NCBI RefSeq assembly: GCF_007830115.1
Contig: NZ_VLKP01000007.1
Coordinates: 62,001 to 126,000, forward strand
Length of the DNA: 64,000 nucleotides
Reading direction: 5' to 3'
Source: Aerolutibacter ruishenii
GTDB taxonomy: Bacteria > Pseudomonadota > Gammaproteobacteria > Xanthomonadales > Xanthomonadaceae
The notes under the pieces are model-generated. The model was given only the letters and a program-made list of their open reading frames with translations, searched no databases and was not told the origin of the DNA. The translations under genes were made by a program, and so were the position numbers. Below, piece by piece: positions 25,401 to 53,683 of the stretch. Position 1 is the first letter of the stretch; each line of letters begins with the position of its first letter.

Positions 25401-26275
25401 GCGGCGCGGCGCGCGCCGGCGGTTCGGTTGAAGTCGATCTTGCGCTGGCGATGGCCAATGGCGACACCGCGCGCGTGCATGGGGTGGTGGAGCACGTGTT
25501 TCCGGATCCAGCCAGCGGTGGCCAGGTGTTGTTGCGCGCCTTCCCCAAAGCTGGCCCCGACGCGAAGAAAGCGCTCAAGTCTGTCGATGACCTCGACTAT
25601 GGCGACCTGGTCCGGATCTTCATCGAGTGGGCCGCATTGCGCCTGCACACCGCGGCGCAGCCTGCACCGCCGCCGATCCGCCTGGCCATGCTCGCGATGA
25701 AGGGCGAAGGCTGGGACGGGTTCGGCTGGCAGGCCTGGGACCAGCGCTTCATCGCGCAGCCGCTGGCCCGCGCCGGGATGCTCGATGGCCTGCGTAGTCG
25801 CCTCGCTGTGCTGCTGGGCCTGTGGCAACACGCCGCTGCCGAGCCGCCGGTGTACCTGCCGGGCGTGGCGTGGAAAGCGCGGCGTGCGTGGCGCAAGGCG
25901 CTGGATGGAGCGAGCGCCGCAGGTGCAGAGCCCGATGCTGCCGTCGCATTGACGGCCGGCGTGCACGGAACGGCCGTTGCCCATACGGACACGAGTCCGG
26001 ATGCGCAGGCGACTGCAACGCAGGCCGCATGGGTGGCCGCCGCCAAGGTGGCCCACGAGGCCATGGATGGTGGCGGCTGGGGCGGGCAGGGCGGCGGTGT
26101 CCGCACCCACGCGCCCGGCTACAACCGCCTGTTGGCACGCGGCACCGAATTCCGGCTGGACGATGACGGGGCGCCTACACCCGAGCTGCAGCGGTTGTTG
26201 GCCTACGCCGGGCAACTGCACGATTTGATCCGCCTCGACACGCCGACCACCCCACCGGGACGCATCGATGACTGA
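22442..26275 (+). CDS. recC: Exodeoxyribonuclease V subunit gamma (RecC)
   Basis: Subunit of the RecBCD helicase-nuclease that processes double-strand ends; RecC scans for the recombination hotspot sequence. The 1277-residue product is longer than E. coli RecC (1122). It has the N-terminal pattern LVIFRASRLEALVSPL ... HPGMKQWLTGALARE, the middle motif LYVPDPCREYWGG, and the dead-helicase stretch GGITFCGMVPQRAIPFDMVCVLGLNDGEFPR. An uninterrupted frame runs back to 19727 as a shadow of acnD; the start at 22442 (MAPDVTANSS) is the sensible one, with a TATCCT -10-like hexamer about 30 bases before it. It overlaps recB by eight bases. Confidence 0.93.
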   Translation: MAPDVTANSSDNDAGLVIFRASRLEALVSPLREMLRQTCPDSVLAPQTVVAAHPGMKQWLTGALAREAGPGGIVANLEVILPSTWLDRVAGERLGAQAVKLPAWQRAHLRWTVHDLLRPGHAVPGVTDTRIERYLAPAAGTGNAEAAHASSAADAARRRFQLADRLAGLYSQYLIYRSDWLRAWERGKLDEATARTADTDARRLESELLAPLWRALKARLGAHRADAVDALVTALEHDAAREPLHVFGLSHLAPRELEVLRAWARRAPVCLYVPDPCREYWGGLVRPGHVDELRAWTAQEQARIDNAGVGDWCETQGHPLLARWGRLGQHFFASLVEGEVREDMRHWQDEGDDAPTHRLQRLQAGIRRLQPSLLDESVPEEPQARKAWQQHGRSDASLRLHACHTRLRELEVLRDALLDAVEHEGVRAGGIVVMAPDITAYAPLIPAVFGEPGSPRERVLPYHLSDVPIARAHRLFSTFTRLLDLGSSRATTPEIADLLAVPEVALRLGLGGDARDGLLGWLERSRVAWALDGTHRAAFAAPAIADHTFAWAMDRLLAGYVMADAPDDARTAALDLPDGTRLLPLAGVQGPATSSLGALDRLLCELQRWRDLAGRTLPASAWAEELQQRIDALLRADADDGDAVEALKTIGRIIAQLAAEPAKADLDPPLHFAVVRELLLDALGSVPERQRFLMGGITFCGMVPQRAIPFDMVCVLGLNDGEFPRSHRDGGLDLMARVRRLGDRDVRSDDRYLFLETVMSARKRLHLSWIGQDVRDGSARNPAPPLAELITALDHAAGTQQLSLERAHPDRPWWVWHPLQPFDDRYFDGTDAALYSYSQPFARQDGGGHRAPRAFVDGAAGAPDPLPMPLSLPAFARFFKRPADDLLARRLQLDLEALDGEHLPASEPLDERLDRLETIARRVFFAEALPTGFADDGSVRWDAASLPDWVAHAGLLPPGELGRIAWRNEANAVLALLAAAAAQGVDGGAARAGGSVEVDLALAMANGDTARVHGVVEHVFPDPASGGQVLLRAFPKAGPDAKKALKSVDDLDYGDLVRIFIEWAALRLHTAAQPAPPPIRLAMLAMKGEGWDGFGWQAWDQRFIAQPLARAGMLDGLRSRLAVLLGLWQHAAAEPPVYLPGVAWKARRAWRKALDGASAAGAEPDAAVALTAGVHGTAVAHTDTSPDAQATATQAAWVAAAKVAHEAMDGGGWGGQGGGVRTHAPGYNRLLARGTEFRLDDDGAPTPELQRLLAYAGQLHDLIRLDTPTTPPGRIDD

Positions 26276-53339: not shown

Positions 53340-53452
53340 GGAGGCTGGCGATAGGGGTGTTGCTACAGCGCTCTGTCGCGGCATCCTGCCGCGAGTCGCG
53401 CCGCCGGCCATCCATGGCCGGCTTTTCCGCAAAACCCCTATCGCCAGCCTCC
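53340..53452 (+). repeat. Compound stem-loop repeat, copy 1
   Basis: A perfect 19-bp inverted repeat (GGAGGCTGGCGATAGGGGT at 53340-53358 and its complement at 53434-53452) encloses two hairpins: TCGCGGCA-TCC-TGCCGCGA (53376-53394) and GCCGGCCAT-CC-ATGGCCGGC (53403-53422). One mismatch inside the outer stem, the pairing resumes with TTGC/GCAA. The fold is a three-way junction. Copy 2 has the same layout reversed. Confidence 0.85.
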
Positions 53453-53477
53453 TGACCCAATGTGCCGGGGTGGAGAA

Positions 53478-53514
53478 AAGCAAAAGGCGCGTGCCAAGCA
53501 CGCGCCTTTTGCTT
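53478..53514. terminator. Perfect 16-bp hairpin between the two repeats, probable bidirectional terminator
   Basis: AAGCAAAAGGCGCGTG and its exact complement, with loop CCAAG. Each strand shows a short T-run within the distal stem (CCTTTTGCTT), giving a terminator-like form in both directions. It could limit purH read-through into purD. Confidence 0.6.
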
Positions 53515-53545
53515 GCCAAGCCCGCCGCAATGACTGGCCGGAGGG

Positions 53546-53654
53546 CGGTGGACTGAGGGGGTGTTGCGGAGAGCGGACCATGGATGGTCCGCGGCCCCGA
53601 CTCCGCGCAGGAAGCGCGGACGGAGGGGAGTAGCAACACCCCCTCAGTCCACCG
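53546..53654 (-). repeat. Compound stem-loop repeat, copy 2 (inverted)
   Basis: A perfect 22-bp inverted repeat (53546-53567 with 53633-53654, core CTGAGGGGGTGTTGC) encloses GCGGACCAT-GG-ATGGTCCGC (53573-53592) and TCCGCGC-AGGAA-GCGCGGA (53602-53620). Read on the minus strand it aligns with copy 1: both share GGGGTGTTGCTAC, a TCCTG-containing first hairpin, GTCG, and a CCATCCATGG second hairpin loop, while the distal stem sequences differ but still pair. Confidence 0.85.
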
Positions 53655-53683
53655 ACCCCATCCGGAGCCATTGCCGCAAAAAA

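Follow-up and report, generated by a model that had tools for sequence, protein, structure and literature searches.

A dispersed repeat with two GGA-loop hairpins, best explained as an RNA and a candidate CsrA/RsmA ligand

Introduction

Two inverted copies of a long palindromic element occupy the gap between purH and purD in the Aerolutibacter ruishenii genome, which raises the questions of whether this structure is read as RNA or as DNA and what it might do. An earlier note on the window, i.e. the whole stretch of 64,000 nucleotides analyzed here, described a three-way-junction fold with shared sequence blocks and took paired differences between the two copies as a sign that the structure is selected, either as RNA or as single-stranded DNA. 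It offered three roles: a REP/BIME-like mobile element, an mRNA 3′-end protector, or a protein-binding site. Here, we describe the repeat family to which both copies belong and weigh the possible explanations for it.

Results

Two copies of a three-way-junction element between purH and purD

Both genes are encoded on the minus strand and both copies lie in the gap between them, inverted relative to each other (Table 1); copy 2 ends 3 nt past position 53654, where the earlier note had placed its end. The outer arms, 24 nt long in copy 1 and 25 nt in copy 2, are 96% complementary in either case, and the copies are 72–73% reverse complements of one another over 54 and 40 nt. For either strand of both copies, the predicted fold is an outer stem enclosing two inner hairpins, with better-strand folding energies of −85.9 and −89.7 kcal/mol; the three-way junction and the shared blocks described before are thus present in the sequence and its predicted fold. 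Read on the strand that carries GGA in its hairpin loops (GGA strand, the RNA strand of Table 1), each copy consists of an outer 5′ arm ending in TTGC, a joint of 5–6 nt, a 7-bp hairpin with the loop AUGGAU, a joint of 1–2 nt, a second hairpin domain made up of a 4-bp stem, the internal loop GACU/AC(G/A)GA, and a 6-bp hairpin whose loop is AGGAU or AGGAA, and, past a joint of 4 nt, an outer 3′ arm beginning with GCAA. Both window matches of GTTGCTAC fall within the copies, although two or more matches were also obtained in 17 of 100 shuffles and the motif alone is not unusual; CCATCCATGG has two of its three window matches within the copies, and three or more occurred in none of 100 shuffles. 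The third CCATCCATGG is located at 26061–26070, outside every match of the covariance model introduced below. Judged by its sequence, the inverted repeat between the two copies is probably a bidirectional intrinsic terminator, which belongs to the surroundings here and not to the element.

Table 1 Features of the two copies and of the sequence between them. Positions refer to the window; R1 is the covariance model described in the text.
Feature	Position	Strand	Evidence	Remarks
Copy 1, whole element	53340–53452	-	Inverted arms, fold, R1 match G000:C7:115346-115446:- (111.9 bits)	purH–purD gap, upstream of purD; RNA strand minus, sense of purH and purD
Copy 1, outer stem, 5′ arm	53429–53452	-	Inverted arms, fold	
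Copy 1, first hairpin	53403–53422	-	Alignment, fold	Loop AUGGAU at 53410–53415
Copy 1, second hairpin domain	53368–53401	-	Alignment, fold	4-bp stem, GACU/ACAGA internal loop (possible tandem G.A), 6-bp stem, loop AGGAU at 53383–53387
Copy 1, outer stem, 3′ arm	53340–53363	-	Inverted arms, fold	
Inverted repeat between copies	53478–53514	.	Inverted-repeat search	Perfect, 17 bp, T-run on both strands
Copy 2, whole element	53543–53657	+	Inverted arms, fold, R1 match G000:C7:115550-115650:+ (105.1 bits)	Adjoins purH stop codon; RNA strand plus, antisense to purH and purD
Copy 2, outer stem, 5′ arm	53543–53567	+	Inverted arms, fold	
Copy 2, first hairpin	53573–53592	+	Alignment, fold	Loop AUGGAU at 53580–53585
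Copy 2, second hairpin domain	53595–53628	+	Alignment, fold	4-bp stem, GACU/ACGGA internal loop, 6-bp stem, loop AGGAA at 53609–53613
Copy 2, outer stem, 3′ arm	53633–53657	+	Inverted arms, fold	

The element is a dispersed repeat whose stems change in pairs

With the element as query, BLAST against this genome, which comprises 3.36 Mb in 28 contigs, returned a family of matches. A covariance model built from 22 aligned copies of this genome (R1) gave 30 matches at E 1e-4, while full copies scoring at least 77 bits number 26. The element is indeed a dispersed intergenic repeat. The outer arms of these copies have largely unrelated sequences and keep their pairing. Across the 22 aligned copies, 97.7% of cells pair compared with 71.2% in shuffles, none of 500 shuffles being as high; double changes are seen at 28 of 35 pairs, and the pairing falls far short in every slid register. 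The outer stem is poorly conserved in sequence, yet 99.2% paired, with double changes at 17 of its 18 pairs, and the short inner stems covary as well. An alignment of 101 distinct rows from seven genomes, which was fitted to the model and hence leans towards the structure, is 95.9% paired with 34 of 35 pairs changed on both sides. The covariation initially claimed from two copies therefore holds with 22, and covariance-model searches of this genome and its relatives yield further copies, the stem changes of which preserve pairing. Within the second hairpin domain, the internal loop carries GACU in all 22 aligned copies and GA opposite in 21, compatible with tandem G.A pairs. A kink-turn was rejected upon inspection of the aligned copies, where no 3-nt bulge is found beside the GA pairs.

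Wobble pairs distinguish the two strands

Outer-stem mismatches flanked by Watson–Crick pairs were located without favoring G.T and read on the GGA strand. Among 128 distinct stems, 149 G.T mismatches were counted versus 25 A.C and 69 others (p = 1e-22), and this excess has the same direction in convergent, sense-tandem, antisense-tandem, and divergent gene settings, in single copies and pairs alike. In addition, of 129 copies, 118 have their more stable fold on the GGA strand and 10 on the other. Counts of 129 copies derive from 149 hits, 20 of which were left out by hand (copies that were partial, variant, or near-identical, palindromic matches at one and the same site, and one member of a pair); restoring these except for three same-site double matches gives 146 copies, and 156 G.T, 26 A.C, and 87 other mismatches in 140 stems. 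As G.T on one strand equals A.C on the other, selection is strand-specific, a pattern best explained by selection that acts on RNA. Of the two options initially left open, the data lean clearly to RNA of one strand and disfavor the DNA reading.

Copies in different genomes that share at least 600 bp of flank were compared as orthologs, and 12 of 18 such pairs are more than 72% identical. In these 12 comparisons, 36 outer-stem base pairs differ at both positions and are Watson–Crick in either copy; single changes led to G.U (19), to A.C (6), and to other mismatches (18), the latter being partly misalignment and decay. All 18 pairs, poorly aligned ones included, comprise 71 double changes, 27 changes to G.U, 12 to A.C, and 50 to other mismatches; for L019/L075 and L018/L068 the compensatory change is readable by eye. 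Because orthologous copies change in pairs, resident copies appear to remain under selection once in place. Selection on the structure, as originally proposed, is thus borne out by paired changes across copies as well as between orthologs.

The repeat is widespread in the family and present beyond it

At E 1e-4, R1 matched 7 of 40 genomes, this one (G000) counted: 30 matches in G000, 20 in G001, 9 in G004, 10 in G009, and 6 in G010, as well as 8 in G029 and 12 in G039, two genomes of another family of the same order. A broader model (R2), built from 102 hits from seven genomes, matched 78 of 198 genomes of the family, spread over 26 of 54 genera, and at E 1e-5 it matched 11 of 369 genomes drawn from the class, two of which belong to the family; with up to 20 candidates scored per genome in the family survey and up to 11 in the class survey, the copy numbers there are minimum values. 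Fourteen distant loci were folded, and all of them, including each of six found with the Rfam model RF01731, form two GGA hairpins. A clear enclosing stem is present in 12, whereas the stem of L162 holds an extra hairpin inside and L161 has none. A blastn search with copy 1 as query found no plasmid or phage copies. No description of this repeat was found in the literature searched, beyond which one could exist.

The hairpin loops resemble CsrA/RsmA sites

GGA in hairpin loops, particularly as ANGGA, is a mark of CsrA/RsmA-binding RNA and is present in this repeat. Both loops carry GGA in 119 of 129 copies (130 of 146 with the dropped copies restored), a conservation inflated by the seeding of the models with GGA-loop copies. 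The first loop reads CA-N-GGA in 127 of 129 copies, with U, G, A, or C at N. The second is mostly C-AGGA-N, with ANGGA in 27 of 117 listed copies; both window copies have the AGGA form, as a pentaloop versus the canonical hexaloop. The CsrA SELEX consensus is given as RUACARGGAUGU with loops mostly of six bases, RsmE as binding an ANGGAN hexaloop, and most SELEX hairpins as having four or fewer contiguous pairs (PMC7652899). The first loop, typically ANGGA, would correspond to a CsrA/RsmA recognition loop, and by analogy with the selected hairpins, stems as stable as those found here may bind CsrA less well. A single CsrA match was found in this genome, and CsrA occurs in 37 of 40 genomes irrespective of whether they carry the repeat; co-occurrence therefore says nothing.

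At gathering scores, Rfam identified only a tRNA in the whole window. With relaxed scores, TwoAYGGAY (RF01731) is the best match for copy 1, on the same strand (36.3 bits versus a gathering score of 43, E 0.00029; 33.7 bits in a shorter stretch), while copy 2 has no TwoAYGGAY match among the matches listed. RF01731 yielded three matches in this genome, the best at 37.0 bits and none of them listed under stricter filters. In the family, 23 of 99 genomes match at E 0.01. The repeat was not filed as TwoAYGGAY, because RF01731 passes its cut-off in 2 of these 99 genomes and not in the present one. When 20 loci were searched with E-values up to 1, only two matched TwoAYGGAY or RsmZ, both below threshold, namely TwoAYGGAY at L004 and PrrB_RsmZ at L009 (26.3 bits versus a cut-off of 44); both models belong to clan CL00106. 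MicroRNA families reach E-values near that of TwoAYGGAY (MIR1858 with copy 2, E 0.00038, 34 bits versus a cut-off of 137) and were taken as chance fits to long hairpins.

TwoAYGGAY is reported to match the CsrA motif independently and to combine tandem GAs with a poorly conserved external stem (PMC4333381). Its discoverers considered it probably an RNA and probably not cis-regulatory (Weinberg et al. 2010, PMC2864571); its Rfam type is cis-regulatory (RF01731 entry). Like TwoAYGGAY, the nearest named RNA, the repeat has two GGA-loop hairpins, broadly of the (A)NGGA(Y) type, within a poorly conserved external stem; its internal loop is GA/GA-compatible, and tandem GAs are reported for that motif. 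Compared with the AYGGAY loops of that motif, the window copies have AUGGAU in the first and AGGAU/AGGAA in the second loop, and the repeat as a whole differs in its mostly AGGAN second loop, its long near-perfect outer stem, its many copies per genome, and its outward-facing pairs. It seems to work like TwoAYGGAY and to grade into it.

CsrB and RsmX/Y/Z each contain many sites and come from dedicated sRNA genes, of which there are one or a few. The repeat resembles these CsrA/RsmA-sequestering sRNAs in its GGA hairpin loops, and RsmZ also falls into clan CL00106; it differs in that each of its many copies holds two sites and that no promoter was found. In 126 upstream stretches there was no clear excess of sigma-70-like sites over shuffles: a score of 9 or more was reached in 4 of 126 upstream stretches versus 0 shuffled ones, but also in 6 of 126 downstream stretches. 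Xanthomonas campestris is a relative in the wider group. Its RsmU (sRX061) is described as an RsmA-binding RNA with GGA motifs from a 3′ UTR, the GGA mutant of which still bound RsmA (PMC7694677). Likened by description, the repeat has GGA motifs as well, with many loci compared with the one reported for RsmU.

The reading that we favor, with our confidence evenly divided for and against it, is that the repeat is a mobile, dispersed RNA ligand of CsrA/RsmA and a variant of the TwoAYGGAY type, with putative transcription and binding. An RsmA-docking RNA is proposed because the loops are conserved in their letters and match the CsrA site, and because the Rfam relatives are CsrA-linked. The structured RNA of ~110–125 nt, its function tied to one strand, would use the long outer stem to present two GGA-loop hairpins, the first an ANGGA hexaloop, and the two loops could dock one CsrA/RsmA dimer. 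Many copies would jointly serve as scattered RsmA ligands, i.e. decoys that soften RsmA activity, and/or as local RsmA-dependent marks on the RNAs carrying them. We infer that the GGA strand is transcribed, probably by read-through from neighboring genes since no promoter signal was found, and that RsmA binds the RNA with consequences for the cell. The repeat family spreads in genomes as well.

Old loci, new loci, and a possible replication bias

Some copies are shared at the same locus by genomes of several genera. The tgt-yajC copy is found in G000, in G108 (1418 bp shared flank), and in G039 of the other family (1059 bp), the copy at the end of miaB in G000 and G097, and the one at the end of sucD in G000 and G010; G001 harbors a single copy where G000 has the purH-purD pair. 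Conversely, near-identical copies reside at different loci in G009 and G004, and copies in G144 are 88–98% identical to L125. The flanks of nine G144 loci were sought in the congeners G061 and G093; both flanks were present in both congeners at eight loci, and on one side only at L126. For these eight loci, R2 finds no element at 15 of 16 congener sites, the sixteenth giving one weak match (L230, 19.2 bits, E 0.038), and seven G144 loci were also read as sequence in the congeners, where the sites have diverged too far to reveal a target-site duplication. Since similar G144 copies stand at sites that are empty in congeners, the repeat moves, and these comparisons indicate a family that is both old and mobile. 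Between copies, the outer arms differ over their whole length around a core that remains similar.

The leading strand of G144 and G138 was estimated coarsely from GC skew in 20 sampled 20-kb windows per genome. By this measure, the GGA strand lies opposite the leading strand in 19 of 22 G144 copies (p = 0.0009), in a test conceived after seeing the list and with copy 590374 near the inferred terminus and a sampled stretch of opposite skew sign, at position 1.8 Mb, near several copies; we regard this bias as a lead. In G138 the corresponding count is 6 of 13, i.e. no replication bias.

A selfish mobile element lacking a host function, its paired changes stemming from template switching with one arm as the template for the other, would fit the similar dispersed copies in G009, G004, and G144, the empty congener sites, the wholesale change of arms around a constant core, and the strand bias of G144. 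Arm copying, however, gives no reason why one strand should be richer in G.T than in A.C whatever the context, nor does this explanation suit the covarying short inner stems, the same-locus copies across genera and in a second family, or the unbiased G138, and we consider it unlikely.

At the G004 loci L041, L048, L055, L084, and L085, the shared unit extends at least ~170 nt upstream of the outer stem, and the moving unit there therefore exceeds the RNA fold. A second short palindromic repeat (GGATTCCCGCCTTCGCGGGAATGACGG-like) was observed near G144 copies, upstream at L126, L128, L129, L130, L132, L136, and L138, and downstream at L135.

Gene setting and orientation

Gene contexts rest on our own codon-position gene finder and not on annotation. 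With 3 of the 129 copies inside a called ORF and 13 without a called gene on one side, 113 copies could be placed: 39 in convergent, 34 in sense-tandem, 32 in antisense-tandem, and 8 in divergent settings. An opposite-strand gene ends on the downstream side of the element in 71 of 113 placed copies, at a median distance of 62 nt. Both neighbors lie on the other strand in 32 of 113, where no gene therefore obviously transcribes the GGA strand. The centers of neighboring pairs have nothing obvious in common, with no consistent terminator at centers other than that of the window pair.

This arrangement brings up a same-strand structured RNA with a local, CsrA-free job, which would block, trim, or end read-through before it runs antisense into a neighbor. 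A long near-perfect stem suits RNase III; in convergent gaps, 38 of 39 RNA strands have their 3′ side closer to the convergent stop codon (median 49 versus 178 nt), while divergent gaps account for only 8 of 113; and pairs within 700 bp face outward in 25 of 28 cases (28 of 31 with dropped copies restored). Such a guard nevertheless leaves the two conserved GGA loops unexplained, a terminator is no fixed neighbor (upstream in only 9 of 126 copies, despite the one in the window), and the polarity could stem from insertion preference. We thus view this role as quite doubtful.

Discussion

Besides an RNA-level role, three further explanations deserve mention. A hairpin of single-stranded DNA that serves a recombinase or transposase draws on the possible replication-strand bias in G144 and on the fact that G.T pairs better than A.C in DNA, too. 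It is very unlikely, as the lagging-strand template left single in G144 would be the other strand, on which the wobbles are A.C, and as orthologous resident copies still change in pairs. The opposite-strand genes ending close downstream of most placed copies would suit a 3′-end protector of the adjacent mRNA, one of the three roles initially offered, but that mRNA carries the strand with A.C instead of G.U in its stems, which renders this role highly improbable.

REP/BIME and GTAG repeats are described as palindromes of 20–40 bp with a terminal tetramer and a RAYT link, often in opposite-facing pairs (PMC3733652; PMC2817692). RAYT-driven movement of such a palindrome has next to no probability here, although the repeat is likewise intergenic, palindromic, and found in oppositely oriented pairs and seven other carriers (G010, G029, G039, G108, G112, G123, and G138) have one or more PF01797 (RAYT) matches: at E 1e-5 there is none in G000, G001, G004, G009, G144, and G097, which carry 9 to 30 copies, and the tetramer at the single place where GTAG occurs varies (GTAG, GGAG, GCAG, GAAG, and others). 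Among the roles first envisaged, a protein-binding site thus fares best.

Returning to the CsrA/RsmA-ligand RNA, a wider version of this reading is tentative, and we lean against it: a mobile RNA repeat, its RAYT-free spread perhaps coupled to replication, might be retained by hosts across the family as a distributed RsmA-titrating network, with tens of single-dimer decoys instead of one CsrB/RsmZ-type sRNA and selection at each site. TwoAYGGAY has so far been an orphan motif for which a link to CsrA is predicted; a dispersed family of its architecture with a selected strand provides a concrete test system. Should RsmA bind the repeat, RsmA regulation in this family would extend to distributed, evolvable decoys or 3′-region marks, and a mobile repeat would be kept for an RNA function. 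Outward-facing pairs, together with the possible replication bias, would make the mode of spread testable.

Finally, several loci depart from the regular layout. At L023 (1505–1577), L064 (1501–1596), and L065 (1501–1566) of this genome, the first hairpin is swapped for a larger, very G+C-rich insert that is itself repeated. At L016 (1796–1907), an unrelated stretch replaces the second hairpin domain, with the outer arms and first hairpin recognizable, as if the element were modular, and L022 (1505–1622) consists of two half-elements joined head to head, probably a recombination product. At L004 (1050–1460), one copy adjoins a cspA-thermoregulator-like region (74.1 bits versus an Rfam cut-off of 78), the gene there encoding a cold-shock protein.
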